Positions 11,359 to 57,501 are shown, numbered from the stretch's first letter. The stretch: DNA of 64,000 nt from Candidatus Acidulodesulfobacterium acidiphilum (GCA_008534395.1 SHMQ01000002.1:65557-129556); one strand, 5' to 3'. The notes: generated from the letters alone by a model not told the origin. Numbers and translations are program-made.

Positions 11359-12078
11359 TTAACCAAAAATCCCCGCCTTACTTTTAACCATTTTCCCGTA
11401 ATTTTGCAAAAAAACAACCTTGCCTTGATGTTTTTCCGCCCTGATTTTCTTTTTCATTTCTTTTGTTAATCCGACTTTTTGATTAACGACAAGACCGCAA
11501 ACATATTGCCTTTTCCAAGACGGCATTTTCTTTACTTTTTCGTAATTTATTTCCATACCGTATTTATTTAACTGCTTAACTATAAAAGATAAGGCTTTTT
11601 CCATAAGGTCATAGTCGTTTCCCGAAAAAGTTAAATCGTCTGCATATCTCGTATATGCTATATTAAACCCAGCTAATTTTTTGGCGGTTTTATAATCGAA
11701 TTTTTTTAAATATAAATTTGCTATATAGGGGCTCGTCGGCGCTCCCTGCGGAAGTCTCTTGCCTTTTCCGTCTTTAAAATCATAAAAACAAAGACCCCAT
11801 TTAAGCTTTGCTTTTATAATCGATTTAGCTTTTTCAAGCGTAATAGAAGGAAAAAAATCTTTTATATCTATTGAATAAACGAATCTTTTATTTACGTGCG
11901 GTTTTGCGTTTGAAACTATGCTTTTGTTCGGCGTAAATCCGTGCGTATAAGGGCTGGCAGGATAGGCTTTATATAAGTATTTCAAATAATCTTCCTGCCT
12001 CTTTTTCGTTATGGGGTCTGGAGCTTCGATATGCCTCGTTCCTCCGTTTTTTTTCGGAATTTCAAAAACCCTATACAT
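11359..12078 (-). CDS. Retron-type reverse transcriptase
   Basis: 239 residues from the ATG at 12078, which has AAAGGAGG upstream; an in-frame ATG at 12123 has no ribosome site and touches the RNA gene. RT motifs: PKKNGGTRHIEAP, SIDIKDFFPSI (first Asp), LPQGAPTSPYIANL (motif 4 with SP, unlike diversity-generating RTs) and YTRYADDLTFSG (YADD). The retron signatures NAxxH (NAKPH) and a VTG-like VCG (YVCGLVVN) are both present. It copies the adjacent msd RNA into multicopy single-stranded DNA. Small for the family (about 300), with the thumb region short. Known retrons act in anti-phage defence with an effector; here the candidates are the two genes downstream. Confidence 0.9.
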   Translation of the reverse strand: MYRVFEIPKKNGGTRHIEAPDPITKKRQEDYLKYLYKAYPASPYTHGFTPNKSIVSNAKPHVNKRFVYSIDIKDFFPSITLEKAKSIIKAKLKWGLCFYDFKDGKGKRLPQGAPTSPYIANLYLKKFDYKTAKKLAGFNIAYTRYADDLTFSGNDYDLMEKALSFIVKQLNKYGMEINYEKVKKMPSWKRQYVCGLVVNQKVGLTKEMKKKIRAEKHQGKVVFLQNYGKMVKSKAGIFG

Positions 12079-12094
12079 TTTCAAATCCTCCTTT

Positions 12095-12116
12095 GGCGGG
12101 ATTTTAATATCCCGCC
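12095..12116. promoter_or_regulatory. Hairpin in the RT leader
   Basis: GGCGGGAT at 12095-12102 pairs with ATCCCGCC at 12109-12116, between the RNA and the RT ribosome site. It may separate RNA processing from translation or limit RT expression. Confidence 0.55.
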
Positions 12117-12124
12117 GTTGCATT

Positions 12125-12328
12125 AATAGACACTAAAAGTAAGCGGGGGCGGCGAAGAGTTCGCAGAGGTAAAGCGTATTCCCCACTATCTTTTTTTTCC
12201 TGTAGCTTTACCTTGCGAATCGTCGCCGCCAGAGCGGAAACCTGATAAAGCTAAACCTGATTAACTTGTTATGCCGAAACAGCATAACCGTTGCAAGAAC
12301 TAAGTTGTTTGTCTTTTTACTGTCTATT
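12125..12328 (-). ncRNA. Retron msr-msd RNA
   Basis: On the minus strand, immediately upstream of the RT. a1 (AATAGACAGTAAAA, ending at 12328) pairs with a2 (TTTTAGTGTCTATT, starting at 12125) over 13 of 14 positions. The msr part has a stem-loop with arms GTTATGC and GCATAAC around TGTTTCG. The msd part is a long hairpin, 12148-12230, pairing GGCGGCGA..GGTAAAGC with GCTTTACC..TCGCCGCC. This is the a1-msr-msd-a2-RT order of retrons. The branch-point guanosine is not assigned. Confidence 0.85.
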
Positions 12329-12352
12329 TTGATATCTTAATAACGAGTTATT

Positions 12353-12484: not shown

Positions 12485-12832
12485 TTTCGTATCCTCTTTA
12501 CTGTTCCTTATATATAAATAGCGAAGTTGCGAGGGTTTATTTCCCGACTACGATAAATCTTTTTATTTAACATTTTTTATATTTATCTTTTTCCTTAACA
12601 ACGTTTTTTATAATGCCTTTAAAAACGTCCTCATTTGACCGTAGAGGCGTTTTTAGCTTCGGGCGTAGGTTTTGTATTAATAAGTTTTTTTAAGAGGTTC
12701 TAAAAAGGTGCTTTTTATATAATTTTTTCTTTCGGAATTTAAAGTCCTTTAAAAACCGCGATGCTGAAATCCGAATAATTTTAAGGGCAGGGGATCGCCT
12801 TTATTATATTTAATAATCTTTTTTCAACTTTA
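12485..12832. other. Non-coding stretch with small hairpins
   Basis: Contains one TAGCGAAGTT copy (12519) and a hairpin near 12618-12658 with AAAAACG/CGTTTTT arms and an inner CCTC/GAGG. No credible reading frame. It leads into the first ornate RNA copy. Confidence 0.6.
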
Positions 12833-13160
12833 GCGGGGGATTAAAAGGGAGAAACGCCCCGAAACCTCAACTTAAAAACGCTTCGAAGGACAAACCGGAC
12901 AGAATCGTTTCGGGGCGTTTCGGAAACAGGCAAATCCCCCGCCCCGCCGTTATAAAAAATTTCAAGGGGAATTCGATAGAAAATTAAACCCGAAGGGCTT
13001 GCAGGCTTTAGCCTGTTTATATTTTCTGTCGCAATTCTCCGTCAGGCGGTTTAGGAAAATTCGATAACAGTTTTATCGTTGTCGAATTTTCCGTTAAAAA
13101 CCGCCTGTGAAATTTTTGCCTAATAAACCGCCGACGTGGAGCTTGCGGATATGTCGGCGC
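12833..13160. ncRNA. Ornate structured RNA, copy A
   Basis: A chain of nested stems. 12833-12842 pairs with 12933-12942 (GCGGGGGATT). 12852-12865 pairs with 12907-12920 (AAACGCCCCGAAAC). 12955-12964 pairs with 13108-13117 (AAAAATTTCA). A GGGGAATTC/AATTCTCC stem carries a variable module. CAGGCGGTTTA pairs near 13101, with the inner hairpin GGAAAATT..AATTTTCC. A CGCCGAC/GTCGGCG hairpin lies at 13129-13159. Copy B at 15989-16350 has the same layout with different paired sequences. Loops read UUCG on the minus strand (CCCTTCGGG), weakly favouring minus-strand transcription. Similarity in style to large phage RNAs (GOLLD, ROOL) is only an impression. Confidence 0.75.
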
Positions 13161-13500
13161 ACTATTTTGCCGTAGCGGTTTTCTTTTCCAAGAAAAAACA
13201 ATATAAAAACGGAATAGTTTCAGGCAGCTCTCCTGACCGGACGGACGGTTCCTGCGGGACGGCGAATCTGCGGCGCCCAGACAAACTTAAAAATGTGGAA
13301 TAACGATAAAGGGTATTTCTGTAATATAAAGGATTAACGGATTAAAATTGCCGCCGAAGGCGGCCGGCGCCGCCGGAGTTTTTTTATTTTATTTTCTAAA
13401 TTATTTTAAAATCGGAAAAAGTCAGGTTATCCGGTCTGTTAAACCGTCGGTCAGGGGAGCGACCCGCTGACGCTGCCGCCCTGACTTTCTCCTTATATAT
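13161..13500. other. Non-coding, GC-rich inverted repeats and possible terminator
   Basis: Holds further folded sequence after copy A and a strong hairpin at 13350-13364 (GCCGCC/GGCGGC). On the minus strand this hairpin has a UUCG loop followed by AATTTTAA. On the plus strand a second GGCGGC/GCCGCC pairing is followed by seven T. Either strand could terminate here. No gene seen. Confidence 0.5.
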
Positions 13501-13516
13501 TTATAGCGAAGTTAAA

Positions 13517-13792
13517 TCAAATTTCAATGTAAGTATTATGACCGCATAACCTTATATACTCTTTAACTTCATTTCTTCTTAAATATTCCTTGAGGGTTCT
13601 TTTTAATTCTAAATTTATAATCGCCGCTTGCTGTTCCCGTTTTGCATTTTTTATCTCTTCTTTTTTTATTGCGATAACTGCTTTTAATCTGTTGTTGTTT
13701 ATTTTTTTTAATAAAATGTTTAAAAAGTTATAAAATTCTTTACCCGACTTGCTAATTGCTATTTTTAAAACTTCCTTTTCTATCGTATCCAT
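13517..13792 (-). CDS. Small basic helical protein, unknown
   Basis: 91 residues, AAGGAGA site. Lys-rich helices (FLNILLKKINNNRLKAVIAI, EEIKNAKREQQAAIINLELK). No family recognised. The stop lies just beside a TAGCGAAGTT copy. Confidence 0.6.
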   Translation of the reverse strand: MDTIEKEVLKIAISKSGKEFYNFLNILLKKINNNRLKAVIAIKKEEIKNAKREQQAAIINLELKRTLKEYLRRNEVKEYIRLCGHNTYIEI

Positions 13793-13814
13793 GATAAATA
13801 TCTCCTTTTTAAAA

Positions 13815-13901
13815 TTAAATAAAAAATAATGCTGTTAATAAAATCATAAAGAACGTTATGCTTATGCCCTGCTCTATATATTCTTTCGTTATAGCTTTCA
13901 T
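13815..13901 (-). CDS. 28-residue membrane micropeptide
   Basis: Starts MKAITKEYIEQGI and continues with one hydrophobic helix ending LLTALFFI. A GGGGGC stretch seven bases before the ATG serves as ribosome site. A second 28-residue membrane micropeptide with good initiation signals lies at 15274-15360. Confidence 0.5.
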   Translation of the reverse strand: MKAITKEYIEQGISITFFMILLTALFFI

Positions 13902-13913
13902 AATTGCCCCCAT

Positions 13914-13934
13914 GGCGGGGTTGTTAGCCCCGCC
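13914..13934. terminator. GC hairpin, copy 1
   Basis: GGCGGGG TTGTTAG CCCCGCC, identical to the hairpin at 14970-14990. Both lie directly between minus-strand genes and directly upstream of the next gene's start region. No T-run, so a pause or mRNA end-protection element is possible. Confidence 0.5.
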
Positions 13935-13960
13935 CGTTATAGTTGTAAAGGTTGTTTATT

Positions 13961-14350
13961 TTATAAATCTATTTCCAAAGGGTCTTCTCCCAAAACAGGA
14001 CTGCAAGATATTTTTATCTTTTTTATTTCGCCCGTGTCAATATCGAAACCCCGCTGAACGTAAAAATCTTCTTCTTCCGCTCTGTTTATGATTTCTCCGT
14101 TATTGCCGCAATATTTATCCGATTCCGCAATGGCTTTTATTAATTTGCTTTCAATGGAAGGATACTTCTTAATTATTTTTTCTTTTGATAAAATTTCTTT
14201 AGCGTCATACAAGAACCCTTCTTTAAGGATTTTTTCAATCCTTTTTTGTGCGTCTTCGATAAATTCGACCGCTGTAGAAAATTCCTGACAGGCTAAAAAA
14301 TGTATTGCGTTTTTTAAATCCGTCTGCGTGTTATAAAAAAAATATTTCAT
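13961..14350 (-). CDS. Hypothetical protein
   Basis: 129 residues from the ATG at 14350 (MKYFFYNTQTDLKNAIHFLA), preceded by GGGGGTAATT; an ATG upstream at 14410 has no site. Helical N-terminal two-thirds, then a charged segment EEDFYVQRGFDIDTGEIKKI. Family not recognised. Confidence 0.6.
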   Translation of the reverse strand: MKYFFYNTQTDLKNAIHFLACQEFSTAVEFIEDAQKRIEKILKEGFLYDAKEILSKEKIIKKYPSIESKLIKAIAESDKYCGNNGEIINRAEEEDFYVQRGFDIDTGEIKKIKISCSPVLGEDPLEIDL

Positions 14351-14399
14351 AATTACCCCCTGCCCCTCTTTCGAGGGGCTTTTAAAATTAATGTTAAAA

Positions 14400-14948
14400 T
14401 TAAAATGCAAAAGCGGTTTGTAAGTTTTTCGTTGCCTGCTCCGGCTGTCTTTTTTGATATTTTGCTTTTATTTTTATTTCGTCTTCTTCGATTTCGTCCT
14501 CGTCGAACATTCCGGCGCTTTCATTGTAGGTTTCCCATTTTTTCGCTGGGATTAAATCTATAAGCTCTGTTGCTTTTCCGTCCTGAGATATTACGGTATT
14601 TAAAGAAGCAGTAAAACAATTTTTCAAATCAAGGTAGCTTATTATCGCTTTTTCAAGTTTTCTTTCTAATTTATTTTTTTTGCCGGGAATGTAAACTTTT
14701 GCGGCTCTTGTTAAGGTAAGAAACAGGCGGTATATTTCGCCTTTTAAATTTCTATTAAAGCGGTCGAAGTCTTTCTGGTCTTTAAATTCGATGTTTAAAA
14801 ATTGCGGATAGTTTGTTGCCTTCTGCATTATCTTTTCAATAAGATATGCTTTAATATGTCTATCCATAAGCAAATCTCTATTTATTACTTCTTCGTTCAT
14901 TTCTTCGATTGCCATATTAACAAATGTTTCAATTATTTCGCTTTTCAT
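14400..14948 (-). CDS. Hypothetical helical protein
   Basis: 182 residues, GAGGAG site. All-helical pattern with a basic stretch (PGKKNKLERKLEKAI) and an acidic C-terminal part (DEDEIEEDEIKIKAKYQKR). It has the same size, charge pattern and position next to a replication or RNA region as the 152-aa protein at 33803 in element 2, but I see no clear residue-level match. Confidence 0.6.
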   Translation of the reverse strand: MKSEIIETFVNMAIEEMNEEVINRDLLMDRHIKAYLIEKIMQKATNYPQFLNIEFKDQKDFDRFNRNLKGEIYRLFLTLTRAAKVYIPGKKNKLERKLEKAIISYLDLKNCFTASLNTVISQDGKATELIDLIPAKKWETYNESAGMFDEDEIEEDEIKIKAKYQKRQPEQATKNLQTAFAF

Positions 14949-14969
14949 TTTTTCTTCTCCTCTATTTAT

Positions 14970-14990
14970 GGCGGGGTTGTTAGCCCCGCC
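14970..14990. terminator. GC hairpin, copy 2
   Basis: The same GGCGGGG/CCCCGCC hairpin as at 13914, with the same TTGTTAG loop. Lies between the genes at 15003 and 14948. Confidence 0.5.
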
Positions 14991-15002
14991 GTTATTTAAA
15001 AT

Positions 15003-15230
15003 TTATTTATTGTGAAATATCCTTTTATATAACTTTACAGTGTGTTTTATCTCGTCTGGTAGATAATAGCCCCCAATGAAAGATTTACGATTGCCATATA
15101 TTAATTCAGCTTTTTTTCCTCCTTTTTTCACGTATAAATATAAGGAATGGTAGAACGTCAACGCCTCCCAATCCTTTACTTTGTATAAAATTTTTGTTGC
15201 AATTTTTAAGCTTTCCTCATTCATTCTCAT
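15003..15230 (-). CDS. Small basic protein, unknown
   Basis: 75 residues, AAGGAGA site. Central YLYVKKGGKKAELIYGNRKS and GGYYLPDEIKHTVKLYKRIF. No family recognised. A GCCTGC/GCAGGC hairpin lies just upstream at 15247. Confidence 0.6.
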   Translation of the reverse strand: MRMNEESLKIATKILYKVKDWEALTFYHSLYLYVKKGGKKAELIYGNRKSFIGGYYLPDEIKHTVKLYKRIFHNK

Positions 15231-15273
15231 TTTGTTTTCTCCTTTGCCTGCCTATGCAGGCTTTTAAAGTTAA

Positions 15274-15360
15274 TTAAATTAAATGTGCTAACTGATAAAG
15301 GTTAAAAACTACCAAACTAAAATCTAAAGCCATTAAACTTATTCCGATTAACCTATCCAT
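15274..15360 (-). CDS. 28-residue membrane micropeptide
   Basis: MDRLIGISLMALDFSLVVF... is one hydrophobic helix. CGGAGGTAGTGAAAATG is an excellent initiation region, which argues it is translated. It matches the length and style of the micropeptide at 13815-13901. It is the first gene after the large structured region, so it may be the first gene of the small-gene transcript. Confidence 0.55.
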   Translation of the reverse strand: MDRLIGISLMALDFSLVVFNLYQLAHLI

Positions 15361-15414
15361 TTTCACTACCTCCGATTTAAATTTTTTTTAACTTTTAATA
15401 ATTTTTTTTTAAAT

Positions 15415-15740
15415 TTTTTTTGCTTTTTTTATCGCCCTTTTACCGTCGGAGACATTTGCGGAGTAAAATTTACTTTTTGCTTTGCAAGGCGTGCCAAAAT
15501 TTGAAGAGATTAGAAAACAAAATATTTTAAATTTTTCTCTGCGTCGTTAGAGATAAAGTAATGTCAATCTATTGTTTGAATGCAAGATATAAAAACGAAC
15601 TGAAAAATTTAAAATATTTTTTTTCTACTCAAATAAAAAAATATTTTGGCACGACTTGCTTAAGCAAAAAGCGTAGCGAAGCGAAGTCCGCAGGATAAAT
15701 TTTACGTAGCAAATCTGGGGCGATAAAAAAAGCAAAAAAA
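15415..15740. ncRNA. Long nested hairpin RNA (about 325 nt)
   Basis: Five stems close one another. 15415-15437 pairs with 15718-15740 (23 bp, core CTTTTTTTATCGCCC). GTAAAATTT pairs with AAATTTTAC near 15700. TTTTTGCTTTGCAAGGCG pairs with the CTTGCTTAAGCAAAAAG region, imperfectly. 15490-15500 pairs with 15643-15653 (CGTGCCAAAAT). 15519-15537 pairs perfectly with 15602-15620 (19 bp). No open frame. Function unknown; the transcribed strand is not determined. Confidence 0.7.
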
Positions 15741-15988
15741 TCTAAAAAATAAAAGAAAAATATTCATACCACAAATACTACAAGTGCTTCTGTTTTAGTG
15801 AGGCAAGCAAAGCGAAGCCGAACTAAAACTCTTTTAAATCCTACAACATCGTTGTTTTTCCAAGTAAAAACTAATAAGTCTTATGCCGGTATTATGAACG
15901 CAGCGGGATCGTCGCTGTCTTAATGAAACGAAGTTTCGAAGAGAGTTCGCTTTTACTTTACTTAATAAGTAGTTATTCCTCGCTTGCG
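15741..15988. other. Non-coding, small hairpins
   Basis: Contains a hairpin with GTTTTAGT/ACTAAAAC arms (about 15801-15830) and a short palindrome CAACATCGTTG (near 15844) that recurs near 17024. No gene seen. Confidence 0.5.
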
Positions 15989-16350
15989 GGTTCGGGACAT
16001 AAGGGAGAAAACGGGCGCAAAATCACAATTAAAAACGCCCCAGAGGACAGCCCCATACAAAAAATTATTTTGCGTCCGTTTTCGGAATAGGTTTGTCCCG
16101 AACCGTCGCCGTCCGCAAAAAAATTTCAAGGAGAATTCGATAGGTTTGGTCACAGGACGGACGTTATGGGATAACTTATCCAAGTTAAAAAACTATCCGC
16201 CGAAGCCTGTGAGCAAACCTGTCGCAATTCTCCGTCAGGCGGTTTAGGAAAATTCGATAACAGTTTTATCGTTGTCGAATTTTCCGTTAAAAACCGACTG
16301 TAAAATTTTTGCCTAAGGGACGGGCGCAAGGAGCGAGCGACGCAGCGCCC
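15989..16350. ncRNA. Ornate structured RNA, copy B
   Basis: Same plan as copy A (12833-13160). 15989-15998 pairs with 16095-16104 (GGTTCGGGAC). 16008-16023 pairs with 16067-16082 (AAAACGGGCGCAAAAT). AAAAATTT pairs with the AAATTTTT region. The variable module is now GGTTTGGTCACAGG/CCTGTGAGCAAACC. The GGAAAATT..AATTTTCC hairpin and a final GGGCGC/GCGCCC hairpin (16322-16350) follow. Unpaired blocks conserved between copies include AAGGGAGAAA, TTAAAAACGC, GAGGACA or AAGGACA, and TTCGGAA. Paired changes between copies are direct evidence that the fold is selected. Confidence 0.75.
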
Positions 16351-16455
16351 CACTAAATCGATTTAAGAACGTTAATCTTAAAAGCCTGTCCAAAGAAAAA
16401 GCTGGATTAACTTAAATTAAGTCCGAAAAATGCGCTCAGGTTAAGTTACCGATAC

Positions 16456-16539
16456 TCTGCTATACGGCACGATATAAAAAAGAATCGGGCGCCCGTTGCG
16501 AAGCAATGGGCTAAAACTATAAAGATGCCGTATAGCAGA
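16456..16539. ncRNA. Stem-loop with 14-bp perfect stem
   Basis: TCTGCTATACGGCA at 16456-16469 pairs with 16526-16539. The interior has a CCCGTTGC/GCAATGGG hairpin. Probably continues the copy B RNA. Confidence 0.6.
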
Positions 16540-16633
16540 TAAGATAATATAAATACGTATAGCCGGATAAGCATACGGTATGCGTATAGATAGATAAACA
16601 GTCAGGTATTAGCAGTGAAGCACGTGCAGGGTT

Positions 16634-16736
16634 CAAGAAAGACAGGCGGGGTATTCCACTAAAGCATTATAAAGACGAAAAGACTTTTAAAATAAAAAAA
16701 GCTCAAACGAAGACGTCCACCCCGCCGTCTTTCTTG
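16634..16736. ncRNA. Stem-loop closing about 65 nt
   Basis: CAAGAAAGACAGGCGGGGT (16634-16652) pairs with ACCCCGCCGTCTTTCTTG (16719-16736) with one bulged A. The loop is A-rich. Same non-coding field. Confidence 0.6.
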
Positions 16737-16739
16737 TGT

Positions 16740-17136
16740 AAGAAAAATAAGCGGCGCAAGCCGTTACAATTTTGAAACGAAAAGGCGGTTAAGAATAAAA
16801 GTTAAAAGAAACTATCAAAGCGGGAATCGGAACGACGAAGATGTTCCGAGAGAGCCCCAAGGCGAACGAGGAACGAAGGGAAAGGAAAAAAATGGAAAGG
16901 AAAAGAAGGGAAAGGAAAAAGGGAAATAAAGGAAAAAGGAAACGAAAAAAAATTATCCGTTTATTCGGAGACGAAAAAGGAAAATTATTTATACCGTTCA
17001 CTACGAATTAGATTTCAAAAACACAACATCGTTGTTTGGTTCGCAAGTGGAAACGAAAGCAAAAAAACGATGTAAGAAATTCTTCTACGAAAAGCTGAAT
17101 AGGAGTGTAAGGCTTTCGCTGTGGAGTGGAACGGCA
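16740..17136. other. Polypurine tract and unstructured non-coding DNA
   Basis: From about 16866 to 16950 the plus strand is almost pure A/G (repeats of GGAAAGG, AAGGGAAAGG). Apparent minus-strand frames here are Phe/Ser/Leu-rich consequences of that bias, with no ribosome site. The palindrome CAACATCGTTG recurs near 17024. Confidence 0.55.
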
Positions 17137-17295
17137 GGATTGCCTTGTTGATAAAAAAATAAAAGTGCTAAATTGAATTACGTAAAAAAAGACGATAAAA
17201 TTCAAAAACAAAAAGGCAATCCGAAGTGAAACGGAACAGCATCAGTTTTTATTTTGCCCAAGACGAAGTCTTGCTTTAATGGCAAAATAAAAACT
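17137..17295. ncRNA. Two adjacent long stems
   Basis: GGATTGCCTT (17137-17146) pairs with 17213-17222. AGTTTTTATTTTGCC (17244-17258) pairs perfectly with 17281-17295 around an inner AAGAC/GTCTT hairpin. Confidence 0.6.
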
Positions 17296-17305
17296 CTCAA
17301 CTACT

Positions 17306-17500
17306 CCCCCTTGCGAATAGCGAGGGGGTGAGGGGGGTGTCTCACGTGTGGCTTCAGTGCGAGATATTGACTTTCCACTGTTGCAACTATAAAAACGATA
17401 AAAATAAAATAAGATAAATGCAAAAAATAAAAACGAAAGTCAATATCCGCACGGTGTAGCATTCGCGGCGATTTCTTTCAACTTAAATCGCCGCGAATGC
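17306..17500. ncRNA. Further stems of the RNA field
   Basis: CCCCCT/AGGGGG hairpin (17306-17328). ATATTGACTTTC (17364-17375) with 17435-17446. A 16-bp perfect GCATTCGCGGCGATTT hairpin (17459-17474 with 17485-17500, 10-nt loop). Confidence 0.65.
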
Positions 17501-17507
17501 GTGCAAA

Positions 17508-17618
17508 GAGGTTCGTAGCCGTATCGGCTTTTAAAATAAAACACGCTTTTTTGTTTTATTTTAAAAGCCGAAGGTTTCACCGCTTCACTTTAAGGTGAAA
17601 CCGGTAGGCACGAACCTC
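17508..17618. ncRNA. Three-way junction RNA
   Basis: Closing stem GAGGTTCGT (17508-17516) with ACGAACCTC (17610-17618). Inside it are a 19-bp perfect hairpin (17525-17543 with 17552-17570, CGGCTTTTAAAATAAAACA) and an 8-bp hairpin GTTTCACC/GGTGAAAC (17574-17601). A compact, complete junction fold. Confidence 0.7.
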
Positions 17619-17619
17619 G

Positions 17620-17774
17620 TATATTTTTTTTTATTTTTTATGTTTTTGCTGCGGCTCTCTTAGATGGTTTTACTCAACTTGAGTAAAAAATATTGCAGAA
17701 CACAACAAACTACAACTTAAATCTTCTGCAATATTTTTTATGAGCCGCAGCGATAAAAAATAAAAAAAAATATA
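17620..17774. ncRNA. Nested long hairpin
   Basis: Outer 22-bp A/T stem 17620-17641 with 17753-17774. Then GCTGCGGCTC (17648-17657) with 17742-17751. Then an internal TTTACTCAA/TTGAGTAAA hairpin (17669-17687) and AAATATTGCAGA (17688-17699) with 17725-17736. All are perfect or nearly so. Confidence 0.7.
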
Positions 17775-19390: not shown

Positions 19391-20680
19391 TTACGCCAGT
19401 ATTCTTTCCGTTATCCAATTGTTATTCCTCCTTATATGCTCTATTTTATCTGCGGCAACCTGCTTATAGGATTTGCCGTCCGCTTTTATATAGTCACCGT
19501 TAATATCCTGAACGTAGCAGGCGTTTCCGGTAAATCCCGAAATATATCCCTTTTTACCGCATACCTTAACTTTATCCCATAATGCAAACTTCCTGCCGTT
19601 TACGGTAATTTCTTTGGTATTTTTAGCGTTCCTGACCGAATGGACGTTAGGCTCTTTTCTGCCTTTCCTCGCCGTAGCTTCGTGCAGGGAACGTTTCTTT
19701 TTTCTTGCCTGCTTAATAACAGTTATAAGAATAACGTTATCTTTTACTTCCGTTATGCCTGTAATAGCTATGGCGTCGTTATAATGCTCTTTTTCTAATT
19801 CAAGACTGCGCCTGTTTATAGAAGTAAGATAGCCGTAGGTAAATGCAACCTTATCTCCATAAATAGCCTTAAATTCGTCCATAAGTTTATATCTTACGGC
19901 GTTATACATTGCGGCGGATATAAACTGCTTTGCTTTTTTGAGTTTTGATAAAGCTCCTGTCTTATGTCCTTTTATATGACAGCTTTTATGTAATAACGCA
20001 AGATTATCGGGTTTATTAGTCCCGCCGTCCGCTCTCGGTATTATATGGTGAATATGCCAGCCGTCATTTTCTTTGTAACCTTTATGACAAAGCTGGCATT
20101 TGCCGCTTTCTCTTACGAGTAAAAACTGCTTGGCGTTTTCATAGCCGTATAAAGAGCCCTGCTGATATTCAACGCCGGATATGTCGGGATTAATAAGTTT
20201 TTGCATATCGAATTTATTAATTTCTATTTTTAACGTATAATCGGGATAATAGCTTACGAGTTCGTTAATTTTATTAACTATATGCCTTGCTTTTTGTTCT
20301 ATGCTCGACGGTAACCGTCCTGCTTTTTTATTGCAGCGGTTTAAAAATCTTGCCTTGCGGTAACGGGTATTTCTGTTTCTTCTACTACGTCTCAATACTT
20401 TTCTTGCCGCAAGTAAAGATTTAACGTCGGTTCTTAACCTGATTTCGCCTTTTTCTACTATTTTACCGTTATCCAACGCTACTGCGTATCCGGTAGTATC
20501 GCCGGGGTCAACGCCTACGGTTGCGTGCTGGACAATTTCGGGAGTATCGAACAATAACCGGATAGTAAACGGCTTTTTCGATATTATTACCGCCTTGCCT
20601 TCTTTTAGCATACGCCTTACCTTGCCGTATCTTTTGGTCGGCATAAGCTGTTTTCCGTTCTTGCTAATTACTTTTACCAT
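19391..20680 (-). CDS. iscB: IscB RNA-guided nuclease
   Basis: 429 residues with the full IscB layout. N-terminal PLMP domain (LMPTKRYGKVRRMLKEGKAV). RuvC-I GVDPGDTTGYAV with catalytic Asp. The Arg-rich bridge helix (RKVLRRSRRNRNTRYRKARF). RuvC-II IEINKFD with Glu. HNH CQLCHKGY ... HIHHIIPRADGGTNKPDNL ... CH. RuvC-III HYNDAIAI with His/Asp. A C-terminal beta domain (LWDKVKVCGKKGYISGF) completes it. All catalytic residues are present, so it should be active. IscB is the ancestor-like relative of Cas9 and is guided by omega RNA, which lies just upstream. It probably favours element retention or homing. Confidence 0.93.
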   Translation of the reverse strand: MVKVISKNGKQLMPTKRYGKVRRMLKEGKAVIISKKPFTIRLLFDTPEIVQHATVGVDPGDTTGYAVALDNGKIVEKGEIRLRTDVKSLLAARKVLRRSRRNRNTRYRKARFLNRCNKKAGRLPSSIEQKARHIVNKINELVSYYPDYTLKIEINKFDMQKLINPDISGVEYQQGSLYGYENAKQFLLVRESGKCQLCHKGYKENDGWHIHHIIPRADGGTNKPDNLALLHKSCHIKGHKTGALSKLKKAKQFISAAMYNAVRYKLMDEFKAIYGDKVAFTYGYLTSINRRSLELEKEHYNDAIAITGITEVKDNVILITVIKQARKKKRSLHEATARKGRKEPNVHSVRNAKNTKEITVNGRKFALWDKVKVCGKKGYISGFTGNACYVQDINGDYIKADGKSYKQVAADKIEHIRRNNNWITERILA

Positions 20681-20689
20681 TTCTTACCT

Positions 20690-20952
20690 CTAAAAAGTTA
20701 CTGTAAGTCTTCCTTTTGGAAGTTATTGCCCATCGGCAATGTTATAAGCGCTTTGTTAAATGAGGTTGACTAAGAGTTTCCTCTTTGTTTACAGAGCCTC
20801 GATAGAGCTTGACGCTTGGGCATTACGTCAGGGTATCATCACGCAAATAACGTAGTATCGGTTATGTCTCCGATACTTAGCCTAGACAACCAATTACTCT
20901 TGAACCTTACGGTTCAAACCCCGTCCGAAAGGGCGGGGTGATTGACATTACT
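20690..20952 (-). ncRNA. Omega RNA (HEARO) for IscB
   Basis: About 260 nt of gene-free, highly paired sequence ends 10 bases before the IscB ATG. On the minus strand it starts with CCCCGCCCTTTCGGACGGGG and GAACCGTAAGGTTC hairpins. It continues with a GTATCGG/CCGATAC stem and a multi-stem body, ending near TTACAGTAAC. This is the expected place and look of a HEARO/omega RNA. The guide would be at its 5' end, reading into flanking DNA at about 20945-20965. Confidence 0.8.
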
Positions 20953-56587: not shown

Positions 56588-57480
56588 ACTTAAAGTCAAG
56601 TCAGTTTATAAAATATTATATTATGCGTAAAATTTATTAATTACGCTTAAAAATCTTTAACAAATGTTAAAAAGTGCTTAAAATATAAAAAGTCAAGACG
56701 CCCGCCGTGTTATTACGTTTTGTATAGCAATATAATTAATTATAACGCTTTAAAATTTAAGCGCTTTTCGCGCTAGCGCAATCTTAAAAATTAATTTTAT
56801 TTAATTTTTCTGTTTAAAGTTAAAAATTGGTGCTATGGATTAATTACTTAAAGTCAAGAAAAAGGGTGCCATGGATTAATTACTTAAAGTCAAGATTTTT
56901 TACTTAAAGTCAAGAAAATAATTACTTAAAGTCAAGAATAATTACTTAAAGTCAAGAAAAAAAAACAGGGCTTAAACTTAGTGCTGGCGTGAGGTTGCGG
57001 GAAATGGCAAAAATTGACTTTATAGTAAAATTAGGGCTCCCCAGGGTGCCATGGATTTTCGTTTTTTTTACTTAAAGTCAAGAAAAAAAAAATCCAGCTG
57101 CCCTAGTGCAGGCGTGAGGTTGCGGGAACAGCTAAAATTGACTTTTTAGTAAAATCAGGGCTCCCCAGGGTGCCATGGATTTTTTGCGACCGCAACGCTT
57201 AGATACTATTAACGGAAATGGCAATTTACAAATTACCCAAAAAAATCTATGGCACCCATTCAAACCCTTATATAATAAGACATAGAAAGAAAAACGACAC
57301 GGATTTGAGAAAAAACACAACTCGTTGGAAAAAATTTTTTTTTTGGAGAACTTTTTTTATTTTTTCGAAAATCTGTGGCACCCCCCTAAGTTTCCTTATT
57401 TTTCAAGGGGTTGAGTGGGTGCCATGGATTTAAAAATCCATGGCACCCCAAAAATCTATGGCACCCCTTAATTTTCAAAG
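56588..57480. repeat. Iteron field, candidate replication origin
   Basis: At least seven ACTTAAAGTCAAGAA units (56588, 56846, 56882, 56902, 56924, 56944, 57070). About nine GGGTGCCATGGATT-like units occur in both orientations (56828, 56866, 57044, 57164, 57240, 57370, 57417-57470). An 80-bp direct repeat lies at 56979-57060 and 57104-57185. No gene. This is the arrangement of an iteron-controlled oriV. Confidence 0.75.
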
Positions 57481-57501
57481 GGTTTAGCGTAAAATCGATT
57501 T

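Follow-up and report, generated by a model that had tools for sequence, protein, structure and literature searches.

What keeps a fold in place while the letters of its stems change, and what reads it? The question is raised by two non-coding units, u1 and u2, which lie 3.2 kb apart in the window, the whole 64,000-nucleotide stretch of Candidatus Acidulodesulfobacterium acidiphilum DNA analysed here. The first-pass annotation had described them as a two-copy family of ornate RNAs with a selected fold, inexplicable by any protein and situated beside a retron. We agree that no protein explains them; the copy number, the retron and the RNA identity fared less well.

Architecture and setting of the two units

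The window is largely an ICE carrying a MobF relaxase, T4CPs, ParA/ParB, RecT and two integrases, one of them beside tRNA-Thr, and each unit precedes a run of minus-strand genes that take the folded strand as their template. On the plus strand, both units contain in the same order a P0 hairpin, an unpaired CCGCC, a three-way junction formed by the closing stem P1 and the arms P2 and P3, a GCC, and a P4 hairpin. The unit edges (~12809-13164 and ~15962-16355) were set by where the match of two further copies on contig C5 of the same genome, c5a and c5b, ends, on the left at TTAATAAG and on the right at CGCCCCACTA.

Unit u1 (12809..13164, plus strand), delimited by alignment with u2, c5a and c5b, begins with TTTAATAA and ends with GGCGCACTA. 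In its P0 hairpin (12833..12942), placed by folding and by comparison with u2, GCGGGGGATT pairs with AATCCCCCGC, followed by AAACGCCCCGAAAC with GTTTCGGGGCGTTT. The three-way junction (12955..13120) matches R2, a covariance model of which u1 is a training member, at 135 bits, and consists of P1 (12955-12964 with 13108-13117), P2 (12966-13040) and P3 (13043-13107), the last containing an internal loop (13053..13097) in which A13053 lies opposite GTTAA (13093-13097). The aligned P4 hairpin (13129..13159) has the stem GCCGAC..GTCGGC and the loop motif GGAGCNTGC. Unit u2, likewise on the plus strand and delimited by alignment (15962..16355), folds into a P0 hairpin (15989..16104) pairing GGTTCGGGACA with TGTCCCGAACC and then AAAACGGGCGCAAAAT with ATTTTGCGTCCGTTTT, a junction (16119..16313) matching R2 at 129 bits, u2 being a training member too, and an aligned P4 hairpin (16322..16350; GGGCGC..GCGCCC). 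Its junction stems are P1 (16119-16128 with 16301-16310), P2 (16130-16233), which has a long variable tip, and P3 (16236-16300).

The fold energies of u1 and u2 were 7.1 and 8.6 standard deviations below those of dinucleotide shuffles (z −7.1 and −8.6), with 0/100 shuffles equally stable, bearing out the earlier claim that the same series of stems recurs in both. Over the final 98 nt of the junction the units have 98% identity, and the divergent parts are P0, the P2 tip and P4. By hand alignment, 10/24 aligned pairs of P0 were changed on both sides, none on a single side and none broken, confirming that stems of different sequence remain fully paired. The proposal that unpaired blocks are conserved held only in part: AAGGGAGAAA, TTAAAAACGC and TTCGGAA are common to u1 and u2, but TTAAAAACGC reads TTAAAAGAAGC in both copies of the second ICE, on C5, and TTCGGAA and part of AAGGGAGAAA fall within the inner stem.

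Unit u2 lies within a gene-free block (15395-17765) in which long imperfect hairpins, at least eight of them and several forked (for example 17500-17630 and 17640-17765), follow one another; the lowest z, −13.9, falls at 17401-17700, and the second ICE (L009) has an 88% identical counterpart of the first ~1.6 kb of this block, around u2. Other features of the window were recorded alongside. A minus-strand retron-type reverse transcriptase gene (11359-12340), whose best PADLOC matches are RT types XIII, III-A and X, is preceded by a stably folding hairpin region (z −5.6), and the second ICE carries a related reverse transcriptase in the same place. An IscB gene (19391-20946) is immediately preceded by a HEARO (omega) RNA (110 bits); lying 4 kb away and with its own RNA, it showed no relation to the units. 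A palindromic array of GGTGCCATGGATTTTT-like repeats (57100-57500, z −8.9) is located near the right-hand integrase.

Range of the family and selection on its fold

The same-genome search that found c5a and c5b, 3.5 kb apart, brought the genome's total to four copies. C5 represents a second, related ICE, which has in common with the window the gene order of retron-type reverse transcriptase, unit, small genes and unit; at the P3 tip of c5a a longer hairpin stands in place of the usual one, with pairing kept. BLAST against relatives, together with a scan of 84,980 species genomes for the pattern (8 stretches), added dispersed, shorter members, and isolate names suggest that the MAGs behind the 8 stretches come from acid mines; by habitat and taxonomic depth, the organism probably falls within Candidatus Acidulodesulfobacterales (GTDB SZUA-79). 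A covariance model built from eight dispersed copies only, R1, recovered u1, which was outside its training set, at E = 3.6e-13, and R2, built from ICE-type copies only, recovered dispersed copies at E values down to ~1e-14. Together the two models located ~28 loci in 14/30 genomes of the phylum, whose 30 genomes are handled as a single family in the genome set used, so that a family of two copies was an undercount. Each genome has 1-5 matches, usually at 1-2 sites per locus, and the element is ~330-440 nt long with a core of ~150-200 nt. Among 192 genomes from other phyla the covariance-model search found no member, and neither the plasmid and phage collections nor two IMG/VR pattern scans gave a family match.

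No known family matched, as the first-pass annotation required. Under strict settings, no Rfam 15 covariance model reached its gathering cut-off over u1 or u2, and the lenient mode returned only two chance microRNA matches (E 0.18 and 0.35). The suggested comparison with GOLLD, ROOL and OLE thus found no support in Rfam; the elements resemble GOLLD, ROOL, OLE, raiA and HEARO in being large and ornate, with some on mobile DNA, but differ in matching none of their covariance models, in being smaller and in being dispersed.

To this fold the alignment lends strong support, with ~25 further members covarying. In a 27-member alignment fitted to R1, eight members of which had trained that model and the remainder had not, 92.4% of 1510 cells were paired, and 54/62 pairs were double-changed, in 335 cells, compared with 105 cells in shuffles and 39-89 after slides of 1-3 columns. 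GT cells outnumbered AC cells by 130 to 34 (p = 2e-14, 27 members), and the model scored 175 bits on the folded strand against 28 bits on the opposite one; the excess of wobbles over mismatches and the gap in score both indicate that one strand is the functional one. The P3 internal loop UUUAG/CGUUAA is kept (TTAG in 25/27, GTTAA in 24/27), as is one U-G pair per arm (P2 22/24, P3 18/25), and these features persist while the stem sequences turn over, which argues that the fold is selected on one strand. The comparison thus shows a strand-specific fold that, as judged from covariation, is under selection and conserved through stem replacement. Because the sequence changes but not the branched hairpin shape, the single strand must be read, in its folded form, by some machinery.

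Dispersal on mobile DNA

The ~28 loci have unrelated neighbours, including T4SS genes, ParA, HicAB, a Cas12a array, cytochrome genes and sugar genes, and copies were found on ICEs, in an IS256 end, and near integrases and defence genes. Most of the other copies have no adjacent retron, so the relevance assigned to the retron in the window was not supported. One ICE carries the element at a site that is empty in a close relative. In L113 a unit separates a T4CP gene from the gene that follows, and in L112 the corresponding gap is only ~40 nt; the flanks are 94% and 86% identical, and the insert of ~355 nt, its boundary read by eye, begins directly after a start codon. The right end is sharp, falling at the same base in five copies (...TTTTTACAAT). 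Judged as a MITE, the family has a sharp right end, and the L113/L112 site, the one clean site, has no clear target-site duplication. This dispersal points to a mobile repeat more than to a locus-bound RNA gene.

Several individual placements were recorded. Three genomes (L126:8258, L128:8086, L130:7675) have an identical IS256-family end, GGGAGCGTTAGATATTTCGTGTCAG, with the element at a similar distance within it; the transposase at that end is still present only in L128. One element adjoins a Cas12a gene and its CRISPR array (L115:8513-12724). At a cargo hot spot (L103:6247-7776, L131:6607-7839), either an AbiP2-type reverse transcriptase or a SIR2 gene accompanies an element, and L135 has neither.

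ERIC, BOX, REP and MITE sequences are short non-coding dispersed repeats that form imperfect hairpins and occur both between genes and inside mobile DNA. Compared with them from general knowledge, the present family is also short, non-coding, dispersed and hairpin-forming, but it is low-copy and highly diverged and has retained a three-way junction, along with wobbles specific to one strand and asymmetric loops that are fixed. It is a previously unnamed family of low-copy mobile non-coding repeats in one phylum of acid-mine bacteria, of the structured-repeat kind and with a putative function.

Candidate readers of the folded strand

We tentatively favour, at somewhat less than an even chance, a mobile repeat that works as single-stranded DNA through its folded strand. 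Selection keeps a forked hairpin on one strand, comprising P0, the linker CGCCG, the three-way junction with its asymmetric loops and U-G wobbles, and the 3′ hairpin; on this reading the fold would act at times when the DNA has only one strand, as in conjugative transfer, and would be recognised by its shape and by short boxes. In its likeliest version the element may be a site of the ssi, A-site or Frpo type, for single-strand initiation or early expression, serving newly entered mobile DNA. The F plasmid has two such sites, Frpo1 and Frpo2, with 92% identity and ~5 kb between them (PMC9849209). Like the Frpo and ssi sites (PMC9849209, PMC11541004), the units form near-identical folding pairs a few kilobases apart, upstream of gene strings of a conjugative element and with the folded strand as template; unlike them, the family lacks a −35/−10 pair in the stem, has a three-way junction and also occurs outside ICEs. 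Sigma70-like sequences occurred inside 20/32 elements against 22 expected, not above shuffles, and none matched within u1 or u2; at such chance levels a Frpo-type −35/−10 in the stem is not supported.

Placement bears on the same reading. By gene direction, with oriT not located, u1, u2, c5a, c5b and the L098 element lie upstream of leading-region-type genes with the folded strand as template. In the five contigs that carry both the T4CP gene and an element, 8/8 elements are on the strand opposite the T4CP gene, a placement confounded with operon direction. With homologous loci collapsed, orientation relative to the 5′ neighbour was 12 versus 8, with no clear bias.

In the A-site, which belongs to the ABC primosome, a single-stranded hairpin holds a DnaA box (PMC6127211), and about half of the family members similarly carry DnaA-box-like 9-mers in their hairpin arms; in these, the folded hairpin might serve DnaA as a binding site from which the helicase is loaded. 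The DnaA-box-like motif TTATMMACA occurs at 3.24/kb in elements and 0.10/kb in flanks, a 32-fold enrichment, and the background in 1.6 Mb of a relative's genome, a portion that does not include dnaA, is 0.088/kb. It was found in 15/32 elements against 0.6 expected, in the arms, with the arm differing between members; because the members are homologous, these occurrences are not independent. Among the loci scanned in a first look, only L127, L128 and L130 have clusters of four boxes in 350 bp; a later scan of more of the relative's genome used a looser three-box rule. The elements at these three loci contain 3-6 DnaA-box-like 9-mers each. Unlike the A-site, the window copies are without boxes, u1 and u2 having no good DnaA box, so the DnaA reading, its DnaA dependence putative by analogy, cannot be the whole story.

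The main rival to a single-stranded DNA site, possible though on the doubtful side, is a structured non-coding RNA carried on mobile elements, whose plus-strand transcript would fold into P0, the three-way junction and P4 and bind a protein or RNA. The drift towards G-U over A-C and the conserved U-G pairs are typical of RNA, the conserved unpaired P0 motifs suit RNA equally well, as does the CGUUAA loop, the fold is unusually stable, and a covarying fold on one strand, the mark of structured non-coding RNAs, is what the family has. However, there is no plus-strand sigma70-like promoter within ~300 nt upstream of u1 or u2, such promoters number 5 per 4.2 kb in the region against 12.9 expected, below chance, the ICE copies have no terminal U-run, the copies have no shared promoter, and no Rfam family covers them. 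Dispersed copies, moreover, are frequently found in antisense orientation, flanked by two genes that run in one direction and separated from each by ~100 nt (L112b, L113). With neither promoter nor terminator found, the RNA identity first proposed was not supported.

A folded single-stranded recombination or transposition site served by a recombinase in trans, comparable to integron attC, CTX attP(+) or IS200/IS605 ends, appears unlikely. CTX attP(+) is a forked hairpin of ~150 bases (PMC2727003, PMC3089051), and the family likewise has a one-strand forked hairpin of ~150 nt; as in integron attC and CTX attP(+) (PMC2727003, PMC3089051), a folded single strand with variable tips would be read by its shape. 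Dispersal with sharp right ends and variable arm tips beside conserved boxes fit such a site. In L103, L123 and L124 an element lies 0.6-0.9 kb upstream of an Integrase_1-type gene, the L123 integrase has just two close homologues in the phylum, each with an element next to it, defence cargo and element are swapped at one integrase-side site in L103 and L131 and absent from L135, and an integrase is present in 10/14 genomes with elements versus 5/16 without (p 0.07). Yet the family shows no cassette array, having only 1-5 matches per genome, and no demonstrated cognate integrase: the L103-type integrase mostly occurs without an adjacent element, most element loci have no integrase, and the one clean site, as noted, lacks a clear duplication. 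The dif half-site (TTATGTTAAAT, up to 2 mismatches) was found in 0/32 elements and attC R boxes (GTTRRRY) in 7/32 against 10.9 in shuffles. A cassette array was accordingly rejected on copy number, and Xer/dif, the attC R box and sso CS-6 because none rose above shuffles. A separate feature was seen at L103 and L131-L143, where a conserved, hairpin-rich 5′ leader of ~700 nt lies ~750 nt upstream of the Integrase_1-type start in many genomes; it had no Rfam match in the loci scanned and may be a separate structured RNA or an att region.

Still less probable is a new class of folded single-strand site, built on a three-way junction, that would serve tyrosine recombinases or replication and priming proteins and through which defence cargo would be moved or established on mobile elements of this phylum. 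Least probable of all is a functionless MITE-like palindromic repeat whose arms are kept complementary by template-switch correction during replication, for although arms are replaced in whole modules, long palindromes abound in the region and such correction needs no selection on the fold, it would erase the A/GTTAA loop (24/27) and the U-G wobbles (P2 22/24, P3 18/25), and the persistence of that asymmetric loop and those wobbles makes neutral upkeep unlikely.

The retention of fold, loop and wobbles under sequence turnover is nearly the strongest comparative signal of single-strand function that sequence alone gives, and no catalogued family covers it. Whichever reader applies, whether an RNA-binding protein, a recombinase or a replication initiator, the ~28 loci supply natural variants for testing. 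If the element is read as single-stranded DNA, the family would represent a lineage-specific solution to the first need of newly arrived conjugative DNA.
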